Source: a virus. From it: a stretch of 47,110 bases of DNA. The DNA is taken from positions 1 to 47,110 of the IMG/VR virus record IMGVR_UViG_3300020152_000029; one strand, 5' to 3'. The translations under genes were made by a program, and so were the position numbers. Shown in pieces: positions 4,433 through 37,365 of this stretch (position 1 is the stretch's first letter; each line of letters begins with the position of its first letter). The notes below the pieces were generated by a model. The model worked only from the letters and a program-made list of their open reading frames with translations, was not told where the DNA came from and made no database searches.

Positions 4433-4456
4433 AATCTGTCTCCTAAAGAGAAAGCG

Positions 4457-4470
4457 ACGCCTCACGGCGT
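4457..4470 (-). repeat. Leader hairpin, copy 1 (GTGA loop)
   Basis: On the minus strand ACGCC-GTGA-GGCGT forms a 5-bp stem with a GNRA-type loop, 25 nt upstream of the polyvalent gene start and followed by CTTTCTCTTTAGGAG. It is one of five related intergenic hairpins in the late region. The spacing and the following pyrimidine-plus-SD stretch closely match the copy at 11660-11674. Confidence 0.55.
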
Positions 4471-4483
4471 TGCGTAGGTAGCC

Positions 4484-5563: not shown

Positions 5564-5578
5564 CATGTTCTCCTAGAT

Positions 5579-6601: not shown

Positions 6602-6624
6602 GCTCTACCTCCAGTGTTTCGAGG

Positions 6625-6666
6625 ATTTTATTACGCAATATCATGGCAAAACGGAAAACGGGAACG
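6625..6666 (-). promoter_or_regulatory. Late promoter, box type, for the 340-aa/polyvalent unit
   Basis: Read on the minus strand, the box CGTTCCCGTTTTCCG occupies 6666-6652 directly after the stop of the 844-aa gene. A -10-like TAAAAT follows at 6630-6625, 21 nt after the box. The predicted start is near 6618, leaving a leader of under 20 nt with GGAGG. The same box precedes -10 hexamers at three other late sites (17572-17612, 20119-20159, 20286-20326). Confidence 0.6.
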
Positions 6667-6667
6667 G

Positions 6668-9202
6668 TCAGCGGATAGCTTCTTTTACGGCTTTGTACAA
6701 CCTGATCGCTGGTGTTATAAACTCTGATGGAATATCCGGCGTCACTTCTTCCGCAGAAGCTCCAGCCATGAGCTTTTGAAGCTGCTTTGCTTGCTCCTTC
6801 ACGTCCGTCCACACAACTTTCCCTGCGATACATACACAGTTGGTCTCTTCGATCATGTCCCAATCCGTAATGTTGTCTATATATCTGGGCTGTAAGGTAT
6901 AGCGCGTGCCGTCTACCGTCACGGACGTAGGAGTAACTTCGTCGTTGTATTCAGATATTGAGTTATCTGTGATAGTGACCTTACCTTCGGAAACGAACTC
7001 GGTCCACGACACGAACGAGAATGTGCCGGTATCGTAGCTGTAACGGAATTTGGCATACCCTGACAACTTTAGTCTGGAGTACACGTCTGTATTCGTTTCA
7101 TGATCCAACGGGAACATGCCGCGATCATCGCCTTCTGTGGTGACGTATGACAGAGGGATCACCGTAACCACCTCTTTGTCGGCAAGTCGCGATGACAACC
7201 AGTTGGTCGAGGGGGTTTCGCCTTCCTCTACTTCAACCGGCGGGCTTGCAGCGATATAGTCGAGTAAAAACTGCGGAATGGTGGTAGCCACTTCGATCGC
7301 AGAGGGTGAGAATATGGACATCTGATCAAAACCATCCGGTAGATTTGGTGTACCTGTGATTTCGTCGGTTGCGTACCACCCGGTGTTTTTATATATGCCA
7401 GATATCTGCACTAGCATATTGCCGGTTGTCGCGTCAGATAGGAACCTGTTTACCCTATCGAATTGAGGCTGAGGGAGAATATCCTCACCTCGGGTGGCTT
7501 CCTGCAGAGTCGCGAAGTTAGGGAAATCTATATACTCATACTCGTCCCACTGCTTGGTCTCTGGAATGTCAAAATGGAGCCACTCGTCTATGTACTCTCG
7601 TCGTATCTGGCGGCCGTTTATAGTGTAGGTATACACCCCCGCATTCGGACCGGTATCTACGTCATACCTCATGGTTATTGTTACATTGGTTTCCTGTGTC
7701 TCAAGCAAGCCGGGGCCGAATTCATAATCAGGGTTAGTAATTTGCGGGCCCTCTACCCTAGAAAAGTTGATTATTTGCATAGGGTATTTACGTTTTAATA
7801 AAGCGCTGACCGGATGCTGCGTCTTAACGAAATATTCTATCTCTGGCGGTAGAAAACCGCTGCGCAAGTACATCAACTGCCCGTCAGAGCAGCGTTTGCG
7901 GCGTGCATGTTCGCGCTGTAACGCGACTGCTTGTGCTGCGTTCCAGTCAGATATCCACTGCTGCGCGGCTGAAGCCTGCCCTTCAAGCGAGTCAAGCCAC
8001 GCTGCATAGTCCGCGAAATACTGCGCAGGAAACGTGTATGTCTTGTACGTAATAGTCGGCGCTGCAGAAGTACCGTTACGCACTCCATAGTCAAGGGTTC
8101 CTTGCGCCAGATTCGTATTTCGCGTGCTTCCGTCGGGATTGTTGCTATGCGTTGGGGGTCCAGTATCGTTGATCGTTCTTGTGCCTGTATCTATAAAATA
8201 CGATTGCCCGTCGTACTCGAGATACAGTGTGTTTGTGGTAACTGTCCCCGCGCTCTCTGTTTCTAGCCTTGTAGTCGGAGCCTGCGGCGCAGTAGTTGTG
8301 CCGGGATACGGCGGCGGGTCCTGCGGGCTGTAACACACGTCGTCGGGGACGGAAAAAATAAGGTCGGGCCCTCGTACAACAGTGGATCCACCTGCGGTTT
8401 CCTCGTAAGTGAATAGCGGAGCGCGGTCCCCACCGCTGTACGGCATGTCGAAAAATGTAGGCACCCATACTTCCCCGGCAGACACTCCGGAGCGCACTTG
8501 CGGGACACTAGCCAACTCTGTGCCGTCAGTCATGAAGACCGCGGCGCGCTGGTTAGCGGCAGCCGTAAGCGCAGAGACAGCGGCTTCTATAGCCGCATCG
8601 AACGGTGTATTCCATGCCTCGTTATAGCTAGCGACACTCCAAAACGGGCTTTCTGGTGTACCGATATTAGTGTACGACGGGTCCTGTGTGAGCAGCGCGT
8701 ATGGAGTAGGTCGTGGGCCGGAAACAGCTGACGTGACAGCAGCAATGTTAATAGACCTGCGCACTGGGGCGCTTGGTTCCGAGGCAGTACCTCCGGACGA
8801 GGTAAATGAACTATCTACTCTACCTACCTCAACACCATTAACACGCGCGACAATTTGGCTCGTGTAGTTCCGAAACCCAACAATATTCCCTAGCTCTACG
8901 ATGTTTTCTTCTGTGAGTGTCACCGCTATCGACGCGCCCGCTGTCTCCACCAGTTCCACACCACGACAGAAGCAGCGCATGGCGACCTGCGCCCCATATC
9001 CGAAGTACATGCTTATATCGCCTTTGACGAAAGCGATATTCTTGTGTGGGTGGTATTCGACTTCCACTCCAGTAAGCTCGTCCACCTGGCGTATGGTGCC
9101 AAACTTCATTTCTCGGTGTTGTGCTGCCACCCGATAAGCGGATTCCCTCTCTTCTTCCGAAGGAACGCCACCAGTTACGCTGATGACATGCGGTAACGCC
9201 AT
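6668..9202 (-). CDS. Large virion protein of unknown fold (844 aa), probably tail
   Basis: 844 aa, rich in Thr, Ser, Tyr, Pro and Val, a beta-rich profile typical of tail or adhesion proteins, with no transmembrane or coiled-coil segment. Residues ~60-130 hold several short beta-strand-like repeats (EVGRVDSSF region). Residues ~300-370 are Pro/Thr-rich, a likely linker. The C-terminal end (QAKQLQKLMAGAS) is helical. The ATG overlaps the stop of the preceding gene (TGATG), so the two are probably translationally coupled. I do not recognise the family. A tail-spike or tail-hub role is possible from size and position, but no carbohydrate-lyase or peptidase motif is visible. Confidence 0.8.
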   Translation of the reverse strand: MALPHVISVTGGVPSEEERESAYRVAAQHREMKFGTIRQVDELTGVEVEYHPHKNIAFVKGDISMYFGYGAQVAMRCFCRGVELVETAGASIAVTLTEENIVELGNIVGFRNYTSQIVARVNGVEVGRVDSSFTSSGGTASEPSAPVRRSINIAAVTSAVSGPRPTPYALLTQDPSYTNIGTPESPFWSVASYNEAWNTPFDAAIEAAVSALTAAANQRAAVFMTDGTELASVPQVRSGVSAGEVWVPTFFDMPYSGGDRAPLFTYEETAGGSTVVRGPDLIFSVPDDVCYSPQDPPPYPGTTTAPQAPTTRLETESAGTVTTNTLYLEYDGQSYFIDTGTRTINDTGPPTHSNNPDGSTRNTNLAQGTLDYGVRNGTSAAPTITYKTYTFPAQYFADYAAWLDSLEGQASAAQQWISDWNAAQAVALQREHARRKRCSDGQLMYLRSGFLPPEIEYFVKTQHPVSALLKRKYPMQIINFSRVEGPQITNPDYEFGPGLLETQETNVTITMRYDVDTGPNAGVYTYTINGRQIRREYIDEWLHFDIPETKQWDEYEYIDFPNFATLQEATRGEDILPQPQFDRVNRFLSDATTGNMLVQISGIYKNTGWYATDEITGTPNLPDGFDQMSIFSPSAIEVATTIPQFLLDYIAASPPVEVEEGETPSTNWLSSRLADKEVVTVIPLSYVTTEGDDRGMFPLDHETNTDVYSRLKLSGYAKFRYSYDTGTFSFVSWTEFVSEGKVTITDNSISEYNDEVTPTSVTVDGTRYTLQPRYIDNITDWDMIEETNCVCIAGKVVWTDVKEQAKQLQKLMAGASAEEVTPDIPSEFITPAIRLYKAVKEAIR

Positions 9203-10221
9203 CAGACTCTCCGGGATTTGGCTATTACAGGCATATCCAGCGCATCAATCTCGATATCAGCGCCGTTCTGATTGGTGATTTCCAGCTGCCATGTCCGGCC
9301 ATCCAGCCCACGACCAAGCTTGACCCTTGTGGGCACTATGGTGCCGGATGCCTTCTGCGCCTCGGACGATATGAATTGATAGGTGTACTCCTGTCCGTCG
9401 ACTCTCGCTGTCAGGTTTACCAGGCCATCACTACGGATACCGGCATAGATAACCGGCATGGTCTTGAGTGAAGGGTCGCCAAAGTCGGTTTCGCCTGTGG
9501 TGATGACGGTATTGATGTCTGCGCCATCATCATCAGTCCCGGCGATCAGGTAGATACCGTCATCATTGAGACCGAAGTAGCTCTGCCCTATCCTGCCGAA
9601 TGAGTTGAACTTGAACTGCTCATAGAACGATGGTGCACCGGTATTCAGGTTGTAAGCCCATCCGTCCCAATAGTCGCTAACGAAGAGGATTCCGGACAAG
9701 ATATGCCCGATGGATTCCGCATTAAGGTTGTATTCCGCACCGGCAGCAACAGAGACATGAATACTCAGATTACTGGATGCAATAGCCTGGATTGATCTGA
9801 ATGATTCGGCAGCTCCATTGATGATCAAAGAGCTGGTTACAGAGTCATAGAATATCTTCGGAGCTGCAGCTGCACTGGAGAGGACGCCAGATGTATCTAC
9901 ACTGGCATTAACTATCTTTGATCCCATGGCCGAGCCCAGGGCGACAATGGCGCTTTCTACGTCAGCCAGAAGCTCCCACTGGACCAAGGGAATCGATGTG
10001 ATTTGACCAGTTGAATTTACTGCGCCCTGGAAATTCACTGTCACGGCAGCTTGTGAGCTTATCGACCCTCGGGACATGACAACATCAGAAGAGTATTCAC
10101 CTACCAGTATCCCTGGTAACGCAAGCCCGGCCCTGCCATCCTCACCAAGAATGAAAGCCGGTAGCACGAATCCGCCGGCTACGAACTCTCCGGATGCGAA
10201 AACTGGTAATGCGAAGGCCAT
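9202..10221 (-). CDS. Predicted tail/virion protein with N-terminal LP repeats
   Basis: 339 aa. The first ~45 residues contain three imperfect repeats of a short hydrophobic unit (ALPVFASGE, VLPAFILGE, ALPGILVGE), after which the protein is Ser/Ala/Val-rich and beta-like. The C-terminal ~60 residues (VKLGRGLDGRTWQLEITN) look like the closing strands of a beta-sandwich, as in phage tail proteins that describe measured or displayed surfaces. There is no enzyme motif. It abuts the 276-aa gene upstream and overlaps the 844-aa gene downstream by one base. A virion role is inferred from this cluster of tightly packed tail genes. Confidence 0.8.
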   Translation of the reverse strand: MAFALPVFASGEFVAGGFVLPAFILGEDGRAGLALPGILVGEYSSDVVMSRGSISSQAAVTVNFQGAVNSTGQITSIPLVQWELLADVESAIVALGSAMGSKIVNASVDTSGVLSSAAAAPKIFYDSVTSSLIINGAAESFRSIQAIASSNLSIHVSVAAGAEYNLNAESIGHILSGILFVSDYWDGWAYNLNTGAPSFYEQFKFNSFGRIGQSYFGLNDDGIYLIAGTDDDGADINTVITTGETDFGDPSLKTMPVIYAGIRSDGLVNLTARVDGQEYTYQFISSEAQKASGTIVPTRVKLGRGLDGRTWQLEITNQNGADIEIDALDMPVIAKSRRV

Positions 10222-11052
10222 TTACAGCGACACGCTCATGTCGGTGATCGAGAAAGAATCGCCGGTTGTCAGTGACATTGAGCTCAGGATCACATCCTCA
10301 TCTGTATCGCCTACAGATAACTGCAGGACGTAATTATCCTTTACCCATCTTGCGTATCCAGGTACTCCGTCAGCCAGGGCATTCACCGAGAGCGGAGCAA
10401 CGAGATTGCTCACACCGCCAGATGAAGTAGCGAAGGCCTGCGTTCCTGTGGATATGACACCAAGCAATGTACCTGATGCCGGTGACTCGACTGATGCAGG
10501 CGCACTGCCGGTATAGATGAAAATCGCACCGCTTGCCCCCATGCCTGGCATCGTTCCAATATTCCTGACAATGCGATCCAGTACTGCATCCCTGAATGCC
10601 GTATTCATGGAAACCGTATCGAGGGTTTCCGGCCACTTCACAGAGCACGCTTCCAGGGTCTTCGGCACACCGGATGTCAGTGTAGTTGCGCTCACAATAA
10701 AGTCCGCACCTGATCCGCTCAACCCTACAGTGCCTTCAATTACGGCAACGTTGCTGGAGTCGAACCAACGTGCATAACCAATAGCCCCGCTTGCAGATGG
10801 AGAAAAATCTATTGGTTGCACCAAAGGCGCTACTCCCATATTGGATCCAGCCATCAAAGACAGACTGGATGCAAATAACGGGATGGTTGCCAGTAGTGTT
10901 CCGGTAGCAGTGTTGGCAATCCCAGGTGCCGATCCTGTATAGAACTTGATATTGCTGTTAGTGCTGCTGGCTAGCCACTGACTCGTTTGAGCAAAACCAG
11001 TTATCTCATTCAGAATGCGGTTCTTGAAGGCAACACTTAAACTCGCGCTCAT
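10222..11052 (-). CDS. Virion protein made of two tandem copies of one ~130-aa domain
   Basis: 276 aa with a clear internal duplication. Residues ~8-137 and ~150-276 share the same order: AF(K/R)..(I/V)L..I, then (K/I)FYTGSAP or FIYTGSAP, GTLL, (L)VQP or (L)VAPL, GYARW, and a final strand ending in (T)LTSG or SLTTG. Each copy looks like a small beta-sandwich. Such single-domain proteins occur in the tail clusters of many phages; their role is unknown, perhaps fibre or decoration. The ATG is preceded by GAGG, and the gene sits 10 nt after the 190-aa gene. The family name is not certain. Confidence 0.82.
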   Translation of the reverse strand: MSASLSVAFKNRILNEITGFAQTSQWLASSTNSNIKFYTGSAPGIANTATGTLLATIPLFASSLSLMAGSNMGVAPLVQPIDFSPSASGAIGYARWFDSSNVAVIEGTVGLSGSGADFIVSATTLTSGVPKTLEACSVKWPETLDTVSMNTAFRDAVLDRIVRNIGTMPGMGASGAIFIYTGSAPASVESPASGTLLGVISTGTQAFATSSGGVSNLVAPLSVNALADGVPGYARWVKDNYVLQLSVGDTDEDVILSSMSLTTGDSFSITDMSVSL

Positions 11053-11062
11053 GATTAGCCTC

Positions 11063-11635
11063 TTAGCTGCTGGTCAAGGTGATGATGCTGGTGACATTCA
11101 ACACGTCGTCATCGACCACTGATTTAGCCGCGGAAAAACGTGCTGCTGAGACTATGACGCCTGTAGTAGCTGATTTGGCGGATGCTGACAGTTGACCAAG
11201 GCCATAGATCGTCTTGGTCGCATTCATGGTGAATACCGCCTTGCTGGCACTGTTACTGACGATGCCGCCAGAGATAGAGCCTGGCACCCATTCCTGCCGG
11301 GTGGATTCATCATAAGCCGTCGATTCGGTAGCCGCAGATGCGAATGTTGCCGCGGTGAGCCCGGCAACTGGCGTGTAGTTGCCTTCAAATAGTGCGATAT
11401 ACCAGTCGCTGATGGGCGATACACCGGTCAATGCCGCGCCAAGGATATAGTTGATACCTTCGGTAGGTATCAGGTTATGTACCTCTTCGCGCGACAGGAT
11501 CACTGAATCCACGCCATCGAAGTCCTTCCGCTCCAGGCCTTCGATCGACAAGCCCATAGCTTTCATGCGCTGGACCGAGCGAATGTGCTCGACGTTGTAC
11601 TTGAAGCCGGCCTTTAAGTTGCCATTTGTTTGCAT
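11063..11635 (-). CDS. Conserved phage virion protein (190 aa), tail-associated
   Basis: 190 aa. An N-terminal helical segment (residues ~8-45) is followed by a beta-rich domain with WYIALFEGNYTPVAGLTAATF, a TRQEWVPG segment and a C-terminal SAARFSAAKSV-DVLNVTSIITL strand pair. I recall this pattern from uncharacterised phage structural proteins encoded next to the neck and tail genes. The domain resembles one copy of the neighbouring 276-aa protein in layout (YTPV / YTGSAP, then a long beta segment), so the two may be distant paralogues. An AGGGAG site precedes the ATG, and the leader carries a 15-bp perfect palindrome. Confidence 0.8.
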   Translation of the reverse strand: MQTNGNLKAGFKYNVEHIRSVQRMKAMGLSIEGLERKDFDGVDSVILSREEVHNLIPTEGINYILGAALTGVSPISDWYIALFEGNYTPVAGLTAATFASAATESTAYDESTRQEWVPGSISGGIVSNSASKAVFTMNATKTIYGLGQLSASAKSATTGVIVSAARFSAAKSVVDDDVLNVTSIITLTSS

Positions 11636-11659
11636 GATGCTCTCCCTAAGAGAAATGCC

Positions 11660-11674
11660 ACGTCGTCACGACGT
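11660..11674 (-). repeat. Leader hairpin, copy 2 (15-bp palindrome)
   Basis: ACGTC-GTGAC-GACGT is a perfect inverted repeat in the 46-nt gap between the beta-propeller-like gene and the 190-aa gene. It is followed on the minus strand by GGCATTTCTCTTAGGGAG, the ribosome site of the next gene. The same arrangement stands before the polyvalent gene. Confidence 0.6.
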
Positions 11675-11681
11675 TGCTTGA

Positions 11682-12914
11682 TTACCTTGCTCTGCGCGTT
11701 ATTTCTGCTTCCGCATAGCTTCCCGCCTGAAGAATCGAACCCTCAGAATTGTTACCCACTACAACGAACTGCCTGATGCCGTCCTGCTCGCGAACCATGC
11801 TGGCAGCATTGATCATCAGACCTGGCGCCAGCGCCTTTTCTGCAAGAATCTCGGCAGCACCTGCTTCGTGTCCGATCACCGGACCGCGCTCAGACATCCA
11901 GATGTACTCATTCGTCCTCGGGATGATTCTGGCCGTGTTGGCTATGCCGCCGAACTCAAAGACCTCGGTTAACACCGGGCTCATGGTGCCAGCCTGGCCG
12001 ATAAAGCGTGTCTGGTCGGCGCAGACATACAGTCCGCCGCCTTTGGTACCAGCGATTACGGTTACTTCCGCTCCAAACTTGTAATAGTTCTTGCGACGGT
12101 CAACATGGTCATAGTCCAGCGCATTGGTCCGCCATACCACGGTTGGATCCGCAGCATCAATCATGAATATGCAGCCATTGGAATACGTGAGGCCGATAGC
12201 GAAAGGTGGCGGAGACTGGTATGCAGTACGCAGCTCGACACCTACAGGCATGGTCATGATGGTGGTGAACTGGTCCAGCGGGCTCAGTTCCTTGGCCAGA
12301 TAGGGCACTTCACCGTTTGGCGTGCTCATGTAGAGCCGTTTCTTTGCGACATCCGCCGAGTCAGGTACCGGCAATGCCGTAGTCGCAATGCCACCAACAG
12401 AATTCAGGGTGATGCTGGACAACAATGACGCGCCAGATTCGCGGCCGTCAGCCATTACGTAGGTCATTGCCAGATGATATGCGCCCGCCGTGAGCTGACC
12501 CGTAGTGAGCGATAAAGCGGGAGCACTTGCCGGCACCTCGACGCCCCAAGGAATAAGAGCACCATTCCTGATGATGGCCGAGGCTGTTGCGCAGCTCACA
12601 TAGATATCACCATTAAGCGCCAGGAATGATGCGCGATTTGCGCCGGCATTGAATGTGCCGATGATGGTCAGAGTGCCGTCAGCGTTGAACTTCTTGATCT
12701 TGTTGTCATGGACCAGGTATGCATTACCGGCGTTGTCATCCCACATGCTATGAGCGCCTCCCAGCTCAAGCACGCGCTGCCTTCCCTTCCGCATGCGCAG
12801 CTTGCCCGAATCGGTGATATCCATGTTCACGATACGACGTGCGGTATCGCTGCCAAGCTCGTTATCCTGGTGGATGTTATCCATGCCACGCTGGAATCCG
12901 TCGATGCGCGCCAT
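11682..12914 (-). CDS. Beta-propeller-like tail protein, P22 gp10-type candidate
   Basis: 410 aa, rich in short beta strands. The opening ARIDGFQRGMDNIHQDNEL, the RIVNMDITDSGKLRMRKGR segment and repeated blade-like units (HSMWDDNAGNAYLVHDNKI; RASFLALNGDIYVSC; FAIGLTYSNGCIFMID; GGLYVCADQTRFIG; NEYIWMSERGPVIG) fit the class of phage beta-propeller tail proteins to which the packaged-DNA stabilisation protein gp10 of P22 belongs. Length is slightly below P22 gp10. The gene follows the head-tail adaptor gene with a TAATG overlap, the order expected of podovirus neck genes. The structural class is fairly likely; identity with gp10 function is an inference. Confidence 0.75.
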   Translation of the reverse strand: MARIDGFQRGMDNIHQDNELGSDTARRIVNMDITDSGKLRMRKGRQRVLELGGAHSMWDDNAGNAYLVHDNKIKKFNADGTLTIIGTFNAGANRASFLALNGDIYVSCATASAIIRNGALIPWGVEVPASAPALSLTTGQLTAGAYHLAMTYVMADGRESGASLLSSITLNSVGGIATTALPVPDSADVAKKRLYMSTPNGEVPYLAKELSPLDQFTTIMTMPVGVELRTAYQSPPPFAIGLTYSNGCIFMIDAADPTVVWRTNALDYDHVDRRKNYYKFGAEVTVIAGTKGGGLYVCADQTRFIGQAGTMSPVLTEVFEFGGIANTARIIPRTNEYIWMSERGPVIGHEAGAAEILAEKALAPGLMINAASMVREQDGIRQFVVVGNNSEGSILQAGSYAEAEITRRAR

Positions 12915-13579: not shown

Positions 13580-14391
13580 TTCAGGCCGTATTGGTCAATC
13601 AACTGGATGACTTCTTTGCGTGCCGTTTCGGTATTGATGCCGACGGGTAGCTTCCGGCCTGCAAAATGCGTCTTGGCATATTCGCGGCATGCGGCAATGG
13701 TCATGTTGTTCACGGCATCGCGCGCCTGCTGCAAATCTTCCTCAGTGTCCTTGTCCTTGTTGGGATTGGGTGCCGTCGCCTGTGGTGCCTGCGCAGCTTC
13801 ACCGATATCGCCAAGAACATACTGATCAGGATGGCGCAGCAGAAGAACTGCCTTGTCCTCGGGAACCAGCTCAGTGCCGCCTTGGGTGAATTGAATGCGA
13901 GTACCGTAGAGATTCTCAATGTAGGTTTCACGTTTGCCCACATACTTGACAGGCGTGTAACCAATGGGTGTGCCAGATTGCTTGGCGGGCTCGATATTCC
14001 TGCCCTTCTTTGCTGGCTCAGGCTCGACTTCTGCGGGCTTCTCTTCCGGCAGTGACAGAGCAGCCTTTACCGTGCCATAAAACACCTGGTCGCGTGTCTG
14101 CAGCTCTTGGGAAAGCTCGTTGAATGGAAGAATGTTGGGGTGCGTCTTGGCTTCCTCATTCACTTCCTCGCCATACACCCATCCATCAGACTGTTTCTGG
14201 GCAAGCCACTGGTTATGCAATGCATCGAATCCAGCTTCAGGGTTGGCGATCAGGAATTCCACATCCTTCAGCACGCTATCCTTTTTCTCGTCCGGGGCTT
14301 CGTCCCAAGGCGCCTGTGGTTCGGCACCAATAGAAACCGTATAAGCGGCAGTGATGGCATAGGCCAGTATTGCGATGGTTGTAGGCTTCAC
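13576..14391 (-). CDS. RyR-domain protein in the head-neck gene block
   Basis: 271 aa, GTG start with AAGGAG 7 nt upstream. Residues ~5-95 match the RyR (ryanodine-receptor) domain: an N-terminal helix with ILAYAITAAY, PWDEAPDEKKDSVLKDV, HNQWLAQKQSDGWVYGE, then KTHPNILPFNELSQELQTRD. A Pro/Glu/Lys linker follows. Then comes a small beta region (ETYIENLYGTRIQF ... ELVPEDKAVLLLRHPDQY) like those of phage neck proteins, and a basic C-terminal helix. RyR domains in prokaryotes and phages are thought to bind small ligands or proteins, but the role here is unknown. It could be a structural protein or an injected or packaged sensor. Confidence 0.78.
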   Translation of the reverse strand: MKPTTIAILAYAITAAYTVSIGAEPQAPWDEAPDEKKDSVLKDVEFLIANPEAGFDALHNQWLAQKQSDGWVYGEEVNEEAKTHPNILPFNELSQELQTRDQVFYGTVKAALSLPEEKPAEVEPEPAKKGRNIEPAKQSGTPIGYTPVKYVGKRETYIENLYGTRIQFTQGGTELVPEDKAVLLLRHPDQYVLGDIGEAAQAPQATAPNPNKDKDTEEDLQQARDAVNNMTIAACREYAKTHFAGRKLPVGINTETARKEVIQLIDQYGLK

Positions 14392-14414
14392 GTCTTTCTC
14401 CTTTGAATCAACCT

Positions 14415-14444
14415 AAAAAACAGGGCGGGCCGAAGCCAGCCCTG
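14415..14444 (-). terminator. Rho-independent terminator after the decoration gene
   Basis: On the minus strand CAGGGC-T-GGC-TTCG-GCC-C-GCCCTG forms a GC-rich stem with a stable TTCG loop and one mismatch, followed by TTTTTT. It closes the unit ending in the 160-aa head protein and separates it from the RyR gene, whose GTG begins ~25 nt further on. Confidence 0.88.
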
Positions 14445-14464
14445 CTCATTCAGTTGCTGTTACC

Positions 14465-14947
14465 TTATGGGGTGCCAGTGGCAACGCCATACACCAGGAA
14501 GTCAAGCTGACCAGCTGAGGCGTGTGCTGCTACCTCATTGGTTACGATCAGCCATGCGTCTTTTGGCAGCGTTACCGGGGCAACACCGGTATTACCCTGA
14601 CGGGTACGGCCGGCAGTGGCCAGGCTCAGGCTGTTGTTGAAGTAGTCAGCATCCTGGGGCACGTTGGTATCATCGACGCCATCCACATACTCAAAGCCGA
14701 TGTCAGCAGTGATAGTGGCGGTGAAGGCATCGGAAATGATGGCCAGCGAGTCCTGGATGCGGAAGCCGGCAGGGATGATGCCGAGGCGCACTTTGTCGGT
14801 TGCCCCTACAGCGGCTGTGGTATCGCTATCAACGAACACACCGGATGCGTTGGTTTTGAACTGGTAGTCCAGTACGGAGTTATTGCCGTACGGAACACCG
14901 CCATGTTGCTGCAAGTTGCGAGCACGTTTCTTGGTTACGGTAGCCAT
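14465..14947 (-). CDS. Head decoration or capsid-associated protein (160 aa)
   Basis: 160 aa, beta-rich, with an N-terminal basic arm (TVTKKRARNLQQHGG) and a compact domain containing DKVRLGIIPAGFRIQDSLAIISDAF and WLIVTNEVAAHASAGQLDFLVYG. This resembles small decoration-type or stabilising proteins that sit next to the major capsid gene in many phages. There is an AGGAG 6 nt before the ATG. It is followed by a strong terminator and lies just downstream of the capsid gene. The role is inferred from position and size. Confidence 0.78.
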   Translation of the reverse strand: MATVTKKRARNLQQHGGVPYGNNSVLDYQFKTNASGVFVDSDTTAAVGATDKVRLGIIPAGFRIQDSLAIISDAFTATITADIGFEYVDGVDDTNVPQDADYFNNSLSLATAGRTRQGNTGVAPVTLPKDAWLIVTNEVAAHASAGQLDFLVYGVATGTP

Positions 14948-14999
14948 GTCGTTCTCCTAGCTAAAATTGGCAAATCTGGTAGTACGTACATCGAATTAC

Positions 15000-15022
15000 G
15001 AAAGGGGGCGGTTTCCCGCCCC
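15000..15022 (-). terminator. Hairpin terminator after the major capsid gene
   Basis: On the minus strand GGGGCGG-GAAA-CCGCCCC makes a perfect 7-bp stem with a GNRA tetraloop, followed by CTTTCGT. The T-tract is short, so it may act as a partial terminator or as an RNA-stabilising 3' end for the abundant capsid message. Confidence 0.7.
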
Positions 15023-15028
15023 ATTCAC

Positions 15029-16309
15029 TTACCGGCCTGCGATCTTGACGGCGGTATCGATCGCCATCACACCGAAGTCGGTGTATTGGGACTCGTCGCC
15101 GTGGTCGATCAGGAAGCGAACCTTGCTCTTGCCGCCAATCATGCCGATCAGGACTTCCAGCACGTTGTCATGGTCGAGCAGCTTTTCGCTCCAGAAGTAC
15201 GGGTTACCGGTCTTGGTGTTCTTGCCCAAGGCTTCTGCCAGCGCCTGGCCACCCAACAGCAGGGCACGATCAACCGCATGCGTGGTGCCAAAGGATGCTG
15301 GTACCAGGTCGGCAGAGGTTTCATCAGTGCTGGTGTAGGAAGCGCAGTAGCGCAGACTGTCACCGGCATAGAAGCGGATGGGTTTAGGCATCTTCACAAT
15401 CAAGATACCGTTCCACAGACCAGCCTCGCCCATAAAGAGGGGGTTGTTCTTGGCCAACTGAGCACGCGCCATTGCGTTGGATTGCAGGGTGCGGAAGTTG
15501 GTGGACTGTACGAACGAGGTATATTGCTCGCTGGAGACCAGCAGGACGCGCATAGGCGAGTCATCTGCCATCTGGTCATCCTCGTACTTCACTGGTGGAG
15601 GTGGCAATGGCATGCCATCCAGTAGGGTGCGGATACCATCTACAACATCGGCGTTCAGCACGTCGGTGGTAGCGATGGTGATTTCGTTTCCGGATGCCTG
15701 AATATGCTCGATACCGGAACCGGTCGACATATAGTGACGGTTCTTGGTAGGAGCCTTGATGCTGTTCACGCAGATGGTTGCGAAATCAGCGTCAGATGCG
15801 AGAGGCAGAGCCCACTCGATATCGTTGGCAAAACCGCGGGCACCAGCCAGGTGAGCGATGGATAACTGGTCATCCAGACGGCTCATGTAGTTCATGCCAA
15901 GCGCACGCGCCAGCTTACGCAGTTGGTGTGGGGTGCGTTGTTGGGTCATCTTTCCGCCGGCGCTGATTGGGTAACGGCATTGGTCGATGCGCAGACTGTC
16001 TTGCGAGAAGCTCATCTTCTTGCCGAGACCTTCAGCAGTACGGTCACCCATGATTGGCTTACCGCCCAATGGGTTGATCAGGTCAAAGGTGATTTCATCA
16101 CCGGCAACCTTGGTCAAGTCCATGCATCGAACAATCGGCAGATCATTCGAGGACTGGAAGCGCAGCTTTGATTCTGCATCAGACTGTTGCGGCAACTTGC
16201 CGGTCAGTCGGTTAAGGGTAGTCGGACGCTGCATGTTCGAAGCGAACAAGCCAGCGGACTGAATCTGTACGGCCTGTGCTGAACCGTATGGAATGCTTGT
16301 AGCAGACAT
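15029..16309 (-). CDS. Major capsid protein, N4-gp56 family
   Basis: 426 aa. It matches the N4-gp56/DUF4043 major capsid family: KVAGDEITFDLINPLGGKPI near residue 66, the MSFSQDSLRIDQCRYPISAGGKM segment, a long helix QQRTPHQLRKLARALGMNYMSRLDD, and a C-terminal domain with LLLGGQALAEALGK. It builds the HK97-fold procapsid shell around the scaffold. An AAGGAG stands before ATG at 16309, and the leader carries a hairpin of the repeated late type. Scaffold is upstream and decoration downstream, the normal order. Confidence 0.93.
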   Translation of the reverse strand: MSATSIPYGSAQAVQIQSAGLFASNMQRPTTLNRLTGKLPQQSDAESKLRFQSSNDLPIVRCMDLTKVAGDEITFDLINPLGGKPIMGDRTAEGLGKKMSFSQDSLRIDQCRYPISAGGKMTQQRTPHQLRKLARALGMNYMSRLDDQLSIAHLAGARGFANDIEWALPLASDADFATICVNSIKAPTKNRHYMSTGSGIEHIQASGNEITIATTDVLNADVVDGIRTLLDGMPLPPPPVKYEDDQMADDSPMRVLLVSSEQYTSFVQSTNFRTLQSNAMARAQLAKNNPLFMGEAGLWNGILIVKMPKPIRFYAGDSLRYCASYTSTDETSADLVPASFGTTHAVDRALLLGGQALAEALGKNTKTGNPYFWSEKLLDHDNVLEVLIGMIGGKSKVRFLIDHGDESQYTDFGVMAIDTAVKIAGR

Positions 16310-16337
16310 GGTAATTCTCCTTCAATGGGATCAGCGG

Positions 16338-16350
16338 CGTCATCACGACG
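16338..16350 (-). repeat. Leader hairpin, copy 3, before the capsid gene
   Basis: CGTC-GTGAT-GACG on the minus strand, in the 58-nt gap between scaffold and capsid genes, 28 nt before the capsid start. An A/T-rich run precedes it. Same core as copies at 17549 and 20093. Confidence 0.55.
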
Positions 16351-16367
16351 GCGCAAAAATTTAAAAA

Positions 16368-17426
16368 CTAAATCACCTTGGAAGTCATTTCCTCAATCTG
16401 TTTCGGTGTCTTTCCGAGGAAAGTATTCACCAGGGCAAGGCCGTTGGATTCCAGTAGCGCCTCACTTGCATCGTGATGCGCATTGGAGCCTGCCGGTATT
16501 TCAGACAGACTGCCGGGAACCGGTGGCTTTGCTTTAGCAGCTTCTGCCTTGGCCTTGGCCGCTAACTCTTCCTGCGTCAGCTGACCGCCCTTTGTATCCT
16601 TCTGCGCGGTGCCGCCTTTGTAGGTATCAAGTAGCTCGATTACCTGGACCGCAGTTCCTTTATCAAGGATTGCTTGGATACCTGGCTGCGCGAAGCTAGG
16701 CTGGCTTTCCATCCAGTCTTTGAATTCCTTGCTCTCAAAGACCGTTTGGTAGTCCTCATGCTTGCCCGCAATCATGGCGAAATGCTTTTCCTCGGCCGTC
16801 AGCTCTGCGGTCTTCTGCAATGGCTGAATTTTCGATTCAAGCTCCGCCTTCAGGGCTGAAACACGTTCTTCCACACCTTCCTTAATCAAGCTCCCAATCA
16901 AGGGCGCCATCTTTTGGGCCAGGTCAGGAAAATCTTCGTTGAGTGCATCAAGTACAGCCTGTTGCGCCTTGGTATCGCCAGTGCCTTCGTCCTTCTGTTG
17001 AGCCTTCTGCAGGCTCGCGATCAGTTCGTCGCGCTTTAAAAGCTCGTCGTCGCGCTTTTGAATCTCGGCTTCAAGTGCTGTGTTCTTGTTGCGGGCACTC
17101 TCCAATTCAGAATAAGGAATGATGTTCTTGCCATCCTTAGCCTGAACCACAGGCGTGTCATCAACGGTTTCAGTCTTGCCAGTATCCGCATCCGTCTTGG
17201 TTTCGGTTTTGTCCTTATCGGTAGCGGCATCGGGCGCTGCCGCTGTATCCACCTTGTCGTCTATCACTTCCGTGTCGGCAGTGATGTCCTTCTCCGTGGT
17301 ATCGCCCTTTACACTGGCGCCGCCAAACAGCAGTGCAGTGCGTGCCTCTTCAGACATTGCCTCAAACTCTTCAGGATGCTCCATATAATAATCAGCATCT
17401 TTCACTACAACTTCATCACCAGGCAT
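16368..17426 (-). CDS. Scaffolding protein
   Basis: 352 aa, very acidic N-terminal half (ETEVIDDK..DKDKTETKTDADTG) followed by a long charged coiled-coil (~residues 110-215: NKNTALEAEIQKRDDELLKRDELIASLQKA) and a Lys/Ala-rich tail, the usual profile of a phage scaffold. It lies directly upstream of the capsid gene and downstream of the portal. The C-terminal end (TFLGKTPKQIEEMTSKVI) is a helix that could bind coat protein. AGGAG precedes the ATG by 6 nt. Confidence 0.88.
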   Translation of the reverse strand: MPGDEVVVKDADYYMEHPEEFEAMSEEARTALLFGGASVKGDTTEKDITADTEVIDDKVDTAAAPDAATDKDKTETKTDADTGKTETVDDTPVVQAKDGKNIIPYSELESARNKNTALEAEIQKRDDELLKRDELIASLQKAQQKDEGTGDTKAQQAVLDALNEDFPDLAQKMAPLIGSLIKEGVEERVSALKAELESKIQPLQKTAELTAEEKHFAMIAGKHEDYQTVFESKEFKDWMESQPSFAQPGIQAILDKGTAVQVIELLDTYKGGTAQKDTKGGQLTQEELAAKAKAEAAKAKPPVPGSLSEIPAGSNAHHDASEALLESNGLALVNTFLGKTPKQIEEMTSKVI

Positions 17427-17571
17427 TGCATTCTCCTATCTACGGTCATTGACCGCCCACTTATCGCCGTGGCGCGTCAGATAGATAATTACTACTTACA
17501 ACAATGGCTGGCGATGTACTGCCAGCCTCCAGCTGCGGGAACCCAACTGTCATCACGACGTTGGTAGCAGA
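17427..17571 (-). promoter_or_regulatory. Structured leader of the scaffold-capsid transcript
   Basis: A ~140-nt leader runs from the predicted start near 17565 to the scaffold ATG. It holds the fourth late hairpin (GTC-GTGAT-GAC, 17549-17559), a second stem of GGCTGGC/GCCAGCC with an 8-nt loop (17506-17527), and a small CGGTCATTGACCG inverted repeat near 17440. A 30-codon open frame (17461-17553) starts inside the first hairpin but has no ribosome site. The structure suggests RNA-level control. Confidence 0.45.
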
Positions 17572-17612
17572 ATCATTCCACAAAAAAATACCGTGTGCGA
17601 AAAACGTGAACG
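17572..17612 (-). promoter_or_regulatory. Late promoter, box type, for scaffold-capsid
   Basis: Minus-strand box CGTTCACGTTTTTCG at 17612-17598, then AATGAT (-10-like) at 17577-17572, 20 nt after the box. It lies just downstream of the 121-aa head gene. The predicted start is near 17565. The -10 is weak, which suits an activator-dependent promoter. Confidence 0.6.
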
Positions 17613-17630
17613 GTCTGTTATTTATCGCAC

Positions 17631-17996
17631 TTACTTAAATGCCTTCTTGCCATTCAGCCCTACTGAGTAGGTGAAGTTAGTGCCGGCAGAGTGCGTCAGC
17701 ACAACACGCCATGACGACGGCACAATGTCCGCTGCAGCAAGGTTCGCGGCTGCTGCAATGCCCTGCCCTACCTTGAGCACTACGGTACCGACTGCACTGA
17801 TAGCAGAGCCCACAAGCAGGTCGTAATACTTGCCGGATACCGGATCACGACCCTGAATCGATGGGGTCACGGTATCGGTGCCTGGCACTGCAGTAACATC
17901 AACGATGACGTGGATACCATCGAACTGGTCTCCTTCCTGGTCTGGCGTTGAATTGGTGGCCGCTCTCACGGCTGAGGCTAATAGTGTGGCTTGCAT
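17631..17996 (-). CDS. Small head protein, decoration-like (121 aa)
   Basis: 121 aa, beta-rich. It carries a distinctive phage structural segment, VPGTDTVTPSIQGRDPVSG, followed by KYYDLLVGSAISAVGTVVLKVG and a closing strand SWRVVLTHSAGTNFTYSVG. I recall this family from phages, near head genes, without a known function. It sits between the portal and scaffold genes, 10 nt after the portal stop, with AGGAG at 5 nt before the ATG. A capsid cement or minor head role is likely but not shown. Confidence 0.8.
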   Translation of the reverse strand: MQATLLASAVRAATNSTPDQEGDQFDGIHVIVDVTAVPGTDTVTPSIQGRDPVSGKYYDLLVGSAISAVGTVVLKVGQGIAAAANLAAADIVPSSWRVVLTHSAGTNFTYSVGLNGKKAFK

Positions 17997-18005
17997 GGCA
18001 ATCTC

Positions 18006-20075
18006 CTAAGTGGTCGCTGCTGTTTCTTTCTTGGGGGTGTCGGCTGGCTTGTCATCTGCCTTGTCGGCTTCGTGCGCATTGGTTTCTGCGTCGAGCCAGC
18101 GGGCTTCTGCGGTGATGCCCTGATTACGTAGCGTTCCCTTGACCTGCAATTCCTTCAATTCAAGATCGCGCCTCTTGAGATCGATATTGGCCTTGAGTAA
18201 TGCGGCCTCCACGGCCTCATCAATGAGCTGCTGGATCTGTTCGGGCGTCTGCTTGGCCTCGGCTTCGCGGATGGCCATGATGATGTCCTTCTTGTCCGGC
18301 ACATCCATGAGGTTAAGCAGGTATGGCAGCATGAGAATCTGGTATTGCGGCGGCATGGACTTGTAGGCTTCGCTCATGGCGGCGAGCTGCTGCGCCCGGA
18401 ATGTCGGCGTGCTTGGTACATCCTCGAGCACAACCTTGAGCTTGGTGCGCTCAACATCGTTATTCAGGTAGCGGTAACCGTCAGGGTGAATAGTCGGCTG
18501 ATTGAGTGCAATGGAGCGGTCTTCCTTGATGCCATTGCCAGGAATCAGAACTTCCTGCTCCTGCCCGATCATATCTTCGATGATGAGCGACACCAGCAAG
18601 TCGCCTACCTCGGCACGGCCGTACTTGAAGTTGTCATTGATATCGGCAAGGGTCTGGTTGGACTGCTCCACCAGCCCAGAGATAGCGACACCAGACTTGG
18701 CCTGGCCATCCTGTCCCATGAAGCTGTTATAAATGCCGCCGGTACGCTTGATGCCTTCGCGGGCATCAGCAAGACGCTGCGCCTGTTCAGCGTTGAGCTC
18801 GAAGTTATTCTGAACCTCGAACGTGGCGCCCTTCTTGGCCATTTCTTTCTGGTCCAGGATGATATCTGCATCAAGTCGCCCGACTTCACGCCTGAATTGC
18901 TCGTCGGTGCCCTTCACGACTCCATCGGTTCGCACCACACGCACGGCAGACAAGCCCCATTGCATCTTGGAGATACGGGCATTCACTTCGTCCTGCAGGT
19001 ACATCATGCCGCGGATCAGGCCATACGGAATGCCGGTGCGGTCTTCGCGTTTGCCCCAGAAGGCAACATAGGGGAATTTATTGTGGCGGTATGGTGTGGG
19101 TGAATCGTCCAGCTTGTGCGGACCCATGTAATACGCACGGCGCACCTTGCCGATGATGGCCCATTGCGGCTTGATGACACCAGATGCCACAGCCATCAGG
19201 TGGTGTCCGTTCTTGTCGTCGTACTCAACAACACGACCGTCAGGTGACTTCAGGACCATGACGCGCACATAGTTGCGGTACCAGACTTCAAACAGGCAGA
19301 CGCGGTTACTGTATGTATCGCGCCATTCCTGTTCTTCGATGGACCAGCCGCGCTCATCATTAAGCGACATGGCCAGCCCGGTGGAATTACCGCCATCCAG
19401 CGTGATCTGGCTATCGAAATTCCATGCGGTCCAGTTGGTGCCGGCATACCTGATGAGTTCCGCCTTGTCCGGGAACATCAGCTCAGCTAGTTTGCGGTCG
19501 GTCCAGCGGCGGCGCACCAGGTAGCGAGCATCAGAGAGGTCCGGCTTCTTGGCCAGGAAGTCCCAGAACATTTCATTACGGTGAACGAACTCGGTACGGT
19601 ATGGATATTTGAATGGGTCGGTATTGCGGGCTACTTCTACCCAACCGATGCCAACCTTGATCTGGCTGGCATAGGCTTCGGAGCACGAACGGTCGGCATC
19701 TGATTTGGATTCGGCCTGCTTCAGCTTGAAGCTGATGGCCTCGGCTACTTCATCGCCGCCTTTGTCACTATCGGGCACCACGCGCCAGTCGGTTCGCGAT
19801 ACCGCTTCCATGCCCAACACTGCGTCAATCGTGGGGCCAATCAGCGGCTCGATGGCCGGTGGCATGCCTATATCGGCTTGTTTGCGCAGTATCTCGGAGT
19901 CCAGCTGGTTGCCGTCGTAATACTCGGCTTCCTTGTCCGCTTTGGATCTCCAGCGCGGCTGCTCATGAATCTCTTCCATCCATGTGGTAAACATGGACAG
20001 CGTGCATTCGCCATCATCGTTAGCTTGGGGTGTGGCGTAGCCGGACTGGCCAGCCATAACGGCGGTGTGTTCCAT
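18006..20075 (-). CDS. Portal protein, P22 type
   Basis: 689 aa. It has the length and signatures of a P22-like portal: the N-terminal SKADKEAEYYDGNQLD, a VEVARNTDPFKYPY loop, RAYYMGPHKLDDSPTPYRHNKFPYVAFWGKREDRTGIPYGLIRGMMYLQDEVN spread over residues ~310-365, then a helical crown with QIQQLIDEAVEAALLKANIDLKRRDLELKELQ. It forms the dodecameric ring through which DNA is packaged and ejected. The start (ATG, 20075) lies after GGCAGGGAAT. Transcription is likely from the promoter at 20119-20159. Confidence 0.93.
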   Translation of the reverse strand: MEHTAVMAGQSGYATPQANDDGECTLSMFTTWMEEIHEQPRWRSKADKEAEYYDGNQLDSEILRKQADIGMPPAIEPLIGPTIDAVLGMEAVSRTDWRVVPDSDKGGDEVAEAISFKLKQAESKSDADRSCSEAYASQIKVGIGWVEVARNTDPFKYPYRTEFVHRNEMFWDFLAKKPDLSDARYLVRRRWTDRKLAELMFPDKAELIRYAGTNWTAWNFDSQITLDGGNSTGLAMSLNDERGWSIEEQEWRDTYSNRVCLFEVWYRNYVRVMVLKSPDGRVVEYDDKNGHHLMAVASGVIKPQWAIIGKVRRAYYMGPHKLDDSPTPYRHNKFPYVAFWGKREDRTGIPYGLIRGMMYLQDEVNARISKMQWGLSAVRVVRTDGVVKGTDEQFRREVGRLDADIILDQKEMAKKGATFEVQNNFELNAEQAQRLADAREGIKRTGGIYNSFMGQDGQAKSGVAISGLVEQSNQTLADINDNFKYGRAEVGDLLVSLIIEDMIGQEQEVLIPGNGIKEDRSIALNQPTIHPDGYRYLNNDVERTKLKVVLEDVPSTPTFRAQQLAAMSEAYKSMPPQYQILMLPYLLNLMDVPDKKDIIMAIREAEAKQTPEQIQQLIDEAVEAALLKANIDLKRRDLELKELQVKGTLRNQGITAEARWLDAETNAHEADKADDKPADTPKKETAATT

Positions 20076-20092
20076 GTGGGTATTCCCTGCCT

Positions 20093-20103
20093 GTCATCAC
20101 GAC
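20093..20103 (-). repeat. Leader hairpin, copy 5, before the portal gene
   Basis: GTC-GTGAT-GAC on the minus strand, 18 nt before the portal ATG and between it and the -10 of the promoter at 20119-20159. The flanking CTACC(A)(A)CGTCGTGATGACAG is shared with the scaffold leader, so the two leaders look like copies of one element. Confidence 0.55.
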
Positions 20104-20118
20104 GGTAGATGGGAACCG

Positions 20119-20159
20119 ATTCTACATATTTTTAATTTGCGCAACGGAAAACGGGAACG
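20119..20159 (-). promoter_or_regulatory. Late promoter, box type, for the portal
   Basis: Minus-strand box CGTTCCCGTTTTCCG at 20159-20145, followed 20 nt later by TAGAAT (-10) at 20124-20119 with TG two bases before it (ATGTAGAAT, extended -10). The predicted start near 20112 gives the portal a ~37-nt leader. It lies just after the terminator at 20174-20196, so portal transcription begins fresh here. Confidence 0.65.
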
Positions 20160-20173
20160 GGCGCGGATGACAT

Positions 20174-20196
20174 GAAAAAGCCCGCGATGGCGGGCT
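20174..20196 (-). terminator. Rho-independent terminator between terL and portal
   Basis: Minus-strand AGCCCGC-CATC-GCGGGCT, a perfect 7-bp stem, followed by TTTTC. It lies 150 nt after the terL stop and is followed by a separate portal promoter. It would end both terL read-through and the short transcript from the promoter at 20286-20326. Confidence 0.88.
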
Positions 20197-20279
20197 GAAA
20201 GTATCAACACTACAGAGAATTAAAGTGTCCACATAAAGGCTTGCTCCTGGGTTCTAAAGACAAATGGTGTATTGCGCGC
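20174..20279 (-). ncRNA. Candidate ~105-nt terminated RNA
   Basis: The box promoter at 20286-20326 predicts a start near 20279, and a strong terminator ends at 20174, leaving a short transcript with no gene. It contains CCCAGGAG followed 10 nt later by ATG TGG ACA CTT TAA, a four-codon frame (MWTL). It might be a regulatory RNA, a leader whose terminator is read through under antitermination, or a spacer with no role. No known RNA family is recognised; this is a prediction from promoter and terminator signals. Confidence 0.4.
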
Positions 20280-20285
20280 CAGGAA

Positions 20286-20326
20286 AATATAGCACTTGGG
20301 TTAGAGCCAAACGAAAAACGGGAACG
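20286..20326 (-). promoter_or_regulatory. Late promoter, box type, upstream of the candidate RNA
   Basis: Minus-strand box CGTTCCCGTTTTTCG at 20326-20312 followed 20 nt later by TATATT (-10) at 20291-20286, preceded by TG (GTGCTATATT, extended -10). This is the best -10 match of the four box promoters. It sits just after the terL stop, yet a terminator lies ~105 nt downstream. Confidence 0.65.
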
Positions 20327-20346
20327 CTAGCTCAGCAGTACGGCGG

Positions 20347-22493: not shown

Positions 22494-22520
22494 GTGTAAA
22501 CGATGGTAAATGTTTAGAGG

Positions 22521-22865: not shown

Positions 22866-22878
22866 GCTTATCTCCTTT

Positions 22879-23028: not shown

Positions 23029-23036
23029 GGCTGATC

Positions 23037-23252: not shown

Positions 23253-23254
23253 AA

Positions 23255-30971: not shown

Positions 30972-30977
30972 GCGCCG

Positions 30978-31044: not shown

Positions 31045-31064
31045 CCAACCGGAAAATGAGTACC

Positions 31065-37316: not shown

Positions 37317-37365
37317 CAAAGGCATTGGCAACAGTGTCTTTGAACAAGCACAAAGGAGAAACGCG

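Follow-up and report, generated by a model that had tools for sequence, protein, structure and literature searches.

Four probable activator-dependent late promoters with a common box at fixed distance from the -10 in an F116/Bcep22-type podovirus

Promoters that respond to lambda CII are class II activator-dependent promoters, in which the activator site overlaps the -35 region and the -10 is of the sigma-70 type. The MotA box of T4 middle promoters lies ~13 bp from the -10, and the Ogr-dependent late promoters of P2 and P4 carry the site TGTN12ACA near -55. Sigma-54 promoters follow the pattern TGGN9TTGC (-24/-12). Our literature search, which does not cover the F116 genome paper, turned up no description of how F116-type generalized transducing phages control their late genes.

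We analysed a viral DNA of 47,110 nucleotides (IMG/VR record IMGVR_UViG_3300020152_000029), referred to here as the window. A preliminary description had placed one 15-bp box at four minus-strand sites and proposed a motif scan as a check. Run on the whole window, the scan finds CGTTCMCGTTTTYCG exactly four times, at those coordinates, all on the minus strand and with 0 mismatches (Table 1); the next-best matches are three in number, each with 3 mismatches, and the reversed pattern has no match in the window. The -10-like hexamers TATATT, TAGAAT, AATGAT and TAAAAT follow the boxes after gaps of 20, 20, 20 and 21 nt, as had been described. The reported lack of TTGACA also holds: at spacers of 15-19, the best matches reach 2/6 at the sites 20326, 20159 and 6666, and 4/6 at 17612 (spacer 18). 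The boxes had further been said to lie just after a gene stop in every case, which does not apply to the 20159 box: this one follows a terminator-like hairpin (20196-20179).

Table 1 Boxes, -10-like hexamers and neighbouring features in the window.
Feature	Position	Strand	Remarks
terminase large subunit (terL)	20347..21915	-	phrog_2, phrog_5989, terL relatives; gene preceding promoters 1 and 2
promoter 1 box CGTTCCCGTTTTTCG	20312..20326	-	20 nt past terL end
promoter 1 -10-like TATATT	20286..20291	-	gap 20
terminator-like hairpin	20179..20196	-	between promoters 1 and 2
promoter 2 box CGTTCCCGTTTTCCG	20145..20159	-	precedes portal gene
promoter 2 -10-like TAGAAT	20119..20124	-	gap 20
portal protein	18006..20075	-	phrog_156, E 1.8e-160; first gene past promoter 2
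promoter 3 box CGTTCACGTTTTTCG	17598..17612	-	precedes scaffold-like and capsid genes
promoter 3 -10-like AATGAT	17572..17577	-	gap 20
scaffold-like gene	16368..17426	-	phrog_479, itself without assigned function; first gene past promoter 3
major head protein	15029..16309	-	phrog_334, E 1.3e-110
promoter 4 box CGTTCCCGTTTTCCG	6652..6666	-	precedes gene 5579-6601
promoter 4 -10-like TAAAAT	6625..6630	-	gap 21
gene after promoter 4	5579..6601	-	cluster members in F116, 8P, Y11, Y7 and Variovorax-type records

All four boxes lie entirely inside the noncoding gaps of 4484-30673, which amount to 1,090 of its 26,190 bases (4.2%) by an uncurated ORF list made for this analysis. None of the 10 consensus promoters that were predicted falls at a box site, no TGGN9TTGC lies 60 nt or less from any of the four hexamers, and the expected transcription start is not an ATG at any of the four sites. 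We call the sites late from the genes that lie downstream of them, and the name "scaffold-like" for 16368..17426 presumes a function from its place ahead of the capsid gene. For the 844-aa protein encoded by 6668-9202, the phage records gave no match and viral_contigs no confirmed one. If the hairpin between promoters 1 and 2 terminates completely, the RNA from promoter 1 would be ~105 nt long. The hairpin alone says little, because 19 terminator-like sites occur in 4000-23500 where shuffles lead one to expect 16.9; the fold of its region has an overall z of -0.89. Searches with Rfam at the gathering score returned no match in the window or in two further loci (L058 and L010). Below that score, six rows appeared in 4000-22000 of the window, among them Hrs13 at 20171-20243 with 18.3 bits against a required 52, and were disregarded.

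We consider it very probable that the four sites are activator-dependent late promoters in a temperate podovirus of the F116/Bcep22 type, with a probability of about 0.75 for the explanation as a whole. Each site would pair a sigma-70-type -10 with no good -35. An activator, which we infer to be made by the phage, would bind the 15-bp box, which spans about -47 to -33 with its centre near -40 when the start is taken to lie ~7 nt past the -10, and recruit host RNA polymerase in class II fashion. Transcription would thus restart at module boundaries: between terL and the portal gene, before the scaffold-like and capsid genes, and between 6668-9202 and 5579-6601. In sister phages, the activator would most likely be PHROG 8117 (F116 gp37), with another protein in that role in the window phage.

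This arrangement resembles lambda CII-type promoters in layout, with a proposed activator site over the -35 region and a sigma-70 -10. As in T4 middle promoters, a box replaces the -35 at fixed distance, but here the distance is 20-21 nt and not that of the MotA box. One phage activator serving several late promoters, as proposed here, recalls the Ogr system, but no Ogr site occurs in the 110 nt that precede each of the four window hexamers. The closest counterparts are the probable late promoters of F116-type relatives, which are alike in their late-gene boundaries, in lying behind stop codons on the late strand, and in the gap of 20-21 nt. They carry a different box, CCCCNNTARGGNT, whose core TARGGNT the window boxes do not fit; the two boxes have little in common beyond the last bases (TCG or CCG in the window, often TCG in the sisters). 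The sister promoters are also linked to PHROG 8117, and at several of them the expected start is an ATG; neither feature was found in the window.

Among 20 records scanned whole, some of them near-duplicates, 12 contain CCCCNNTARGGNT, with 45 matches that are all on the late strand; three of 15 further records add 10 matches, nine of them on the late strand. For a count of spacings, 26 loci were picked as bearing the box or gp37. They gave 59 raw matches, of which two near a locus end were dropped (L082, late strand; L130, other strand), and removal of duplicates (leaving 49) and of near-identical copies left 39. One reverse-strand match in L138, a locus that is not one of the 26, and an opposite-strand match in G018, beyond the part of it that was available, do not enter this count. 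In these chosen loci, 38 of the 39 non-redundant boxes are followed by NANNNT at a gap of 20 or 21 (30/39 and 9/39, respectively, with one box in both counts); each of the remaining gaps between 12 and 30 accounts for only 0-3 of 39. For the F116 box at 22728, the best hexamer is at gap 19. The sister boxes sit at late-gene boundaries, and several appear by eye to stand right behind terminator-like hairpins. An ATG 12-14 nt past the first base of the hexamer, which is where the transcript should begin, is present at 16 of 44 sites of the sisters and Acidovorax phage AP1, including all five in AP1. Other ATG offsets from 0 to 59 occur at two sites at most, except offset 4, which peaks because hexamers end in AT and a G follows. 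The sisters keep this register before a -10-like hexamer with a box of their own, a parallel that gives good support to the earlier reading of the window sites as promoters.

PHROG 8117, a family without known function, is present in 18 of 30 records. Of these, 14 contain the exact sister box, which none of the 12 records without the family does (Fisher p 2e-5, uncorrected for relatedness). Phage AP1 served as a test case, picked solely for its PHROG 8117 protein: across all of its 55,655 bases, the late strand has five TARGGNT sites that are followed by NANNNT at gap 20 or 21, the opposite strand has none, and a control pattern has one match. For PHROG 8117, AlphaFold2 predicts a winged helix and a coiled coil (pLDDT 91-95 for residues 11-60, pTM 0.42). 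A Foldseek search of this model against the PDB gave no match at E <= 0.001, the best being DtxR at 6.3e-3, and VIA-align 2 aligned approximately residues 4-71 to many different winged helices with Z up to 10.8; these structure matches indicate a fold and not a function. We regard it as an even bet that PHROG 8117 is an unrecognised family of late activators, built of a winged helix and a coiled-coil tail, that would bind CCCCNNTARGGNT as a substitute for a -35. Such an activator would work solely at a spacing of 20-21 nt to the -10 and often give rise to leaderless late mRNAs that begin with the start codon. The layout would then be a socket for exchangeable activator-box pairs, in which the window phage has swapped the box, and presumably the activator, and kept the sites and the spacing.

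Alternatively, PHROG 8117 could be some other early protein, for instance an autoregulator, a possibility that we find doubtful but take seriously. A homologue is entered in one record as a putative AbiEi-type antitoxin, two records (G014 and G016, of the 18) carry the gene and no recognisable box, and the co-occurrence may reflect co-inheritance: AP1 and F116 have four virion proteins in common (gp46, gp52, gp57 and gp58; E 5e-31 to 9e-12). Against this, AP1 has no significant match to the F116-type TerS, TerL or portal and at most a weak one to the capsid, yet possesses both the gene and the boxes, and in F116 only 2 nt separate the end of gp37 (22725) from the first box match (22728). Besides gp37, six of the seven box genomes compared share a RecE-like cluster; BcepIL02 and the window, where the sister box is lacking, have this cluster as well.

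The preliminary description had noted no obvious activator gene in the window, and our searches agree: an unfiltered HMM search of this incomplete genome listed no frame as a PHROG 8117 homologue up to E 10, and the best window row in hhalign (37297-37662) has a probability of 21 across 34 columns. Three genes of the window were considered and set aside. The HTH_3 regulator at 30732-31076 and the CI-like repressor at 30921-31712, identified with PHROGs and with Pfam, the latter run on part of the ORFs, are likely lysis-lysogeny switch genes, and 24295-24831, which lies roughly in gp37's place, looks by eye like a membrane-like protein. A host activator reading the box instead of a phage protein would fill this gap. 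We hold that to be unlikely, for the sister box core spans phages of several host genera (Pseudomonas, Shewanella, Pseudoalteromonas and Acidovorax phages, and Variovorax prophages) and co-occurs with a phage gene, as one would expect of a factor made by the phage. The phage activator proposed at about -47 to -33 gains support by analogy with the sisters, whose box is accompanied by a protein family predicted to form a winged helix.

Could the repeat be a by-product of sequence exchange, at ordinary sigma-70 promoters with poor -35s, copied between gene boundaries by recombination? When the whole window is shuffled with its dinucleotides preserved, 34 of 40 shuffles contain a family of four or five 15-mers (<=2 mismatches from the seed), and the real window also contains a larger, unrelated family of five; on the other hand, seeds with families of four or more number 56 in the real window and 0-12 per shuffle. 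Since whole-window shuffles often give families as large, the bare repeat is weak evidence. The 4/6 match to TTGACA at 17612, and CGTCGTGATGACAG, which is common to sites 17612 and 20159 further downstream, would also fit such copying. Other comparisons go against it. When the gaps alone are considered, the real family of four is not approached by 200 shuffles, which reach at most 2 (42/200), or at most 2 in 3/200 if a -10 is required at gap 20 or 21. The distance from box to -10 is kept among the four sites and the sequence between is not, and the sisters have the same distance with another box. We therefore judge recombination-copied ordinary promoters very unlikely. De novo motif discovery with a -10 filter, applied to 21 sequences, gave four sites in the window compared with 2-3 in 10 shuffles, four in Y7 (2-3 in shuffles), three in 8P (1-2) and three in BcepIL02 (1-2), the last with a coding-like motif; a failure of this search is no evidence of absence, because the F116 and AP1 sites went unrecovered. 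Least probable is that the box forms no part of a promoter but serves as an RNA-level, terminator or antitermination element: the sites do follow stop codons or terminator-like hairpins, places where such elements also occur, and the LKA5 record annotates terminators (28358-28384 and 28374-28393) over the box match at 28373-28385, but a hexamer stands at strict distance downstream of the box and the sister ATGs cluster at the start predicted from it.

With activator-dependent late promoters as the preferred reading, the system looks like an undescribed phage late-gene switch, because the relatives keep the layout, and their own, different box co-occurs with the gene of an unstudied putative DNA-binding protein, PHROG 8117. 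We found no description of CCCCNNTARGGNT-type late promoters with PHROG 8117 in the literature searched. A box at fixed spacing together with a named gene makes the idea directly testable in F116 or LKA5 on the laboratory strain PAO1, and if boxes and activators do swap within a fixed layout, these phages would provide a natural series on the co-evolution of activator specificity and promoter sites.

In the viral_contigs collection, CCGTTCMCGTTTTYCGTT occurs in two stretches, and the window box with a correctly spaced NANNNT in 37, one match each. In the DNA available for these 39 loci, no encoded protein matches a window ORF at E 1e-6, and we therefore treated them as chance. The exact box is absent from all 48 capsid relatives and, as far as these sequences go, appears confined to the window phage, with the proviso that viral_contigs may omit its nearest records. 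In the nearest portal relative (L120, 64%), a 165-aa ORF (5501-5998), directly after NinG and approximately at the gp37 position, was considered as an activator and rejected: it has weak matches to several families (best E 0.0018), a poor single-sequence model (mean pLDDT 53.6) and an hhalign probability of 0.6 to PHROG 8117. A second site in L120 has no fitting hexamer. L120 and a capsid relative (L016) do display loosely similar boxes, GTTTCCGTTTATTT and GTTTTTGTTTTTTT, with GACAAT at gap 19, as counted by eye, before the scaffold-like gene, a similarity to the window promoters that is suggestive only.

The preliminary description placed four boxes on the minus strand, each with a -10-like hexamer 20-21 nt further on, and this observation was right: the window contains exactly four perfect matches to CGTTCMCGTTTTYCG, each of them on the minus strand. 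Allowing up to three mismatches added three matches, each with three, and the reversed control pattern had none in the window. The claimed lack of TTGACA also holds at spacers of 15-19 (see table), and the stretch from box to hexamer has no common sequence across the four sites.

Putative late promoters and hairpins of the window
Feature	Position	Strand	Hexamer, gap	Best TTGACA match, spacers 15-19	Setting
Promoter 1 box	20326	-	TATATT, 20 nt	2/6	between terL and portal; separated from promoter 2 by terminator-like hairpin 20196-20179
Promoter 2 box	20159	-	TAGAAT, 20 nt	2/6	between terL and portal
Promoter 3 box	17612	-	AATGAT, 20 nt	4/6	upstream of scaffold-like gene
Promoter 4 box	6666	-	TAAAAT, 21 nt	2/6	between genes 6668-9202 and 5579-6601
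Hairpin, 5-bp stem, loop [GA]GCGANAN	17473-17456	-			upstream of scaffold-like gene
CGTCGTGATGACG-type hairpin (by eye)	about 20105-20090	-			
CGTCGTGATGACG-type hairpin (by eye)	about 17564-17543	-			
CGTCGTGATGACG-type hairpin (by eye)	about 16354-16334	-			
CGTCGTGATGACG-type hairpin (by eye)	about 11672-11657	-			
CGTCGTGATGACG-type hairpin (by eye)	about 4470-4457	-			

Leftward, the window, a 47,110-base virus record from IMG/VR, encodes an HTH regulator, replication and recombination functions, terminase, portal, a scaffold-like protein, the major head protein and virion structural proteins, and the named phages closest to it belong to the F116, Pavtok and Bcep22 types. Antisense ORFs at 363-4477 hit the giant-gene region of phage 8P; a related gene probably extends past the left end, which would make the window genome incomplete. 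The ~105 nt that run from promoter 1 to the terminator-like hairpin (20280-20173, minus strand) could form a small RNA; this stretch does not fold better than shuffles (z -0.89). Gene 31714-32823 (plus strand), which adjoins the CI-like repressor gene, matches Pfam N_methyl (E 2.4e-6), the prokaryotic N-terminal methylation motif of type IV pilin-like proteins, unexpected for a phage.

As a bare repeat the box is weak evidence, because 34 of 40 whole-window dinucleotide shuffles also produced families of four or five 15-mers at most two mismatches from a seed; the real window also contains an unrelated family of five. Seeds with families of at least four numbered 56 in the real window versus 0-12 per shuffle. 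The significance of the repeat comes from its position in gaps: noncoding gaps, as defined by our own ORF list, make up 4.2% of 4484-30673, and all four boxes lie inside them. When only the gaps were shuffled (n = 200), the largest family was two, reached in 42 shuffles, and in three when a -10 at a gap of 20 or 21 was also demanded.

The putative promoter class extends beyond the window, and F116-type relatives (sisters) supply a named, testable candidate activator. The exact window box was in none of 48 viral loci found via the capsid gene. Another box, CCCCNNTARGGNT, occurs at late-gene boundaries in Variovorax-type prophages, F116, LKA5, 8P, USP_18 and Shewanella phage Y11, mostly directly behind stop codons and several times behind a terminator-like hairpin (judged by eye). 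It has 45 matches, all on the late strand, in 12 of 20 records searched whole, a set including fragments and near-duplicates, where its reversed control has three; 15 additional records gave 10 matches in three of them, nine on the late strand. Spacing was scored in 26 chosen loci, which supplied 39 non-redundant copies: NANNNT follows the 15-nt CCCCNNTARGGNTNN at gap 20 in 30 copies and gap 21 in nine (one copy has both), 38 of 39 altogether, and the remaining copy, in F116, has it at gap 19. Other gaps in the 12-30 range gave 0-3 of 39. The boxes of the window share this 20-21 nt register. Ahead of their scaffold-like genes, L120 (the nearest portal relative) and L016 (a capsid relative) carry a loosely similar box followed by GACAAT at gap 19, a weak likeness to the window box. 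The LKA5 record lists many predicted promoters. One without a note starts at 59725, where a box match finishes at 59723; the box match 28373-28385 is overlain by two annotated terminators. Predictions with notes cite general programs and none names a box.

The candidate activator is the family of F116 gp37, PHROG 8117, annotated as of unknown function. In an all-against-all comparison gp37 defined one early-gene cluster present in six of seven box genomes and, among eight others, only in Y7; the seventh member, in 8P, was found by HMM. A RecE-like cluster likewise occurs in six of the seven, but BcepIL02 and the window have it too. The end of gp37 in F116, at 22725, is followed at 22728 by the start of the first box match. 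PHROG 8117 is present in 18 of 30 records, which are not a blind sample, and the exact sister box in 14 of these 18 versus 0 of the 12 without the gene (Fisher p 2e-5, uncorrected for relatedness). Of the four records with the gene but not the exact box, Y7 and G019 carry relaxed, TAAGGTT-containing boxes at unchanged spacing, and no box could be recognised in G014 or G016. In the AlphaFold2 model of the member from locus L057 (pTM 0.42), three helices plus a wing of two strands (pLDDT 91-95 for residues 11-60) are accompanied by a small sheet and, at the C-terminus, a long helix; PDB comparisons matched approximately residues 4-71 to a wide variety of winged helices. Neither an unfiltered HMM search nor hhalign found a PHROG 8117 homologue in the window, which would fit its different box.

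Acidovorax phage AP1 was chosen solely as a gp37 tblastn match, one of 40 among 50,697 phage records. Its capsid similarity to F116 is only weak, and F116 TerS, TerL and portal find no significant match in it, but since four virion proteins are common to both, AP1 is a distant relative rather than an unrelated phage. Across all 55,655 bases, TARGGNT with NANNNT at gap 20/21 occurs five times on the late strand and never on the opposite one; a control pattern matched once. Two of the hexamers lie inside the annotated next gene and one overlaps its start. What looked like a conflict would be answered by in-frame ATGs exactly 13 nt past the hexamer's first base at four of the five sites, three of which lie past the annotated start while one coincides with it; the fifth site has an ATG at 12 nt.

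Over 44 sites (39 sister copies and the five of AP1), an ATG lies 12-14 nt past the hexamer's first base in 16; this comparison was prompted by AP1, which is thus not independent, and 11 of 39 remain without it. Other offsets from 0 to 59 have at most two ATGs each, except offset 4 (eight), explained by hexamers that end in AT and precede a G. ORFs from 13 of the 16 ATGs span at least 100 codons, ORFs at the ends of loci included. These ATGs, among them those at 18338, 32940, 41633 and 45292 of AP1 (L153) and at 11 other sister sites, lie about where a transcript from the -10 would start, so sister late mRNAs may be leaderless; the clustering supports the sister and AP1 hexamers as true -10 elements. 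If AP1 late mRNAs are leaderless, three annotated gene starts would be too far upstream. All four window sites lack an ATG at the expected start.

The proposal of activator-type late promoters is very probably right for the window sites. With the start taken as 7 nt after the -10, the box would lie at about -47 to -33, over the place of a -35. Class II activation would be the simplest reading: an activator dimer on the box would touch RNA polymerase at a set distance, hence the strict gap; a coiled coil would suit the dimeric form. What the sequences show is the boxes, their gaps and locations, and the sister linkage to PHROG 8117; promoter activity, timing, binding and polymerase contact are what we infer. 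Late-promoter activators encoded by phages are already familiar, Mu C and P2 Ogr being examples; the window sites differ from the latter in that the Ogr site is absent from all four, as are sigma-54 elements. In the literature searched, a set apart from the F116 genome and Bcep22 papers, no description of the sister box or of gp37 function was seen.

The late leaders also contain hairpins. One with loop [GA]GCGANAN (search threshold, at least four of five stem pairs) recurs at the corresponding place in 51 of 75 loci, some of them near-duplicates, with many different stem sequences, and in none of 75 shuffled zones (one shuffle each) or 75 opposite strands. The window leader carrying it folds better than shuffles (z -2.46), and Rfam gave no match at gathering score for three sources searched; it appears to be an RNA element, so far undescribed, in the leaders of capsid operons. 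Small CGTCGTGATGACG-type hairpins, seen by eye, lie directly upstream of several late genes. Three close relatives (L009 at ~2599 and 8561, L010 at 5328 and 9970, L029 at 2128 and 7103) each have two gaps, one upstream of the capsid gene, with a hairpin and T-tract followed by GGCCAAAAA(A/T)C. BcepIL02 (L062) and Pavtok (L060), where the search detected no PHROG 8117, show in their late gaps, by eye, strong -10-like elements such as TATAGAAT, TACAAT and TATAAT near GGTGCGA- or GCAACA-like repeats, perhaps another late-promoter class.
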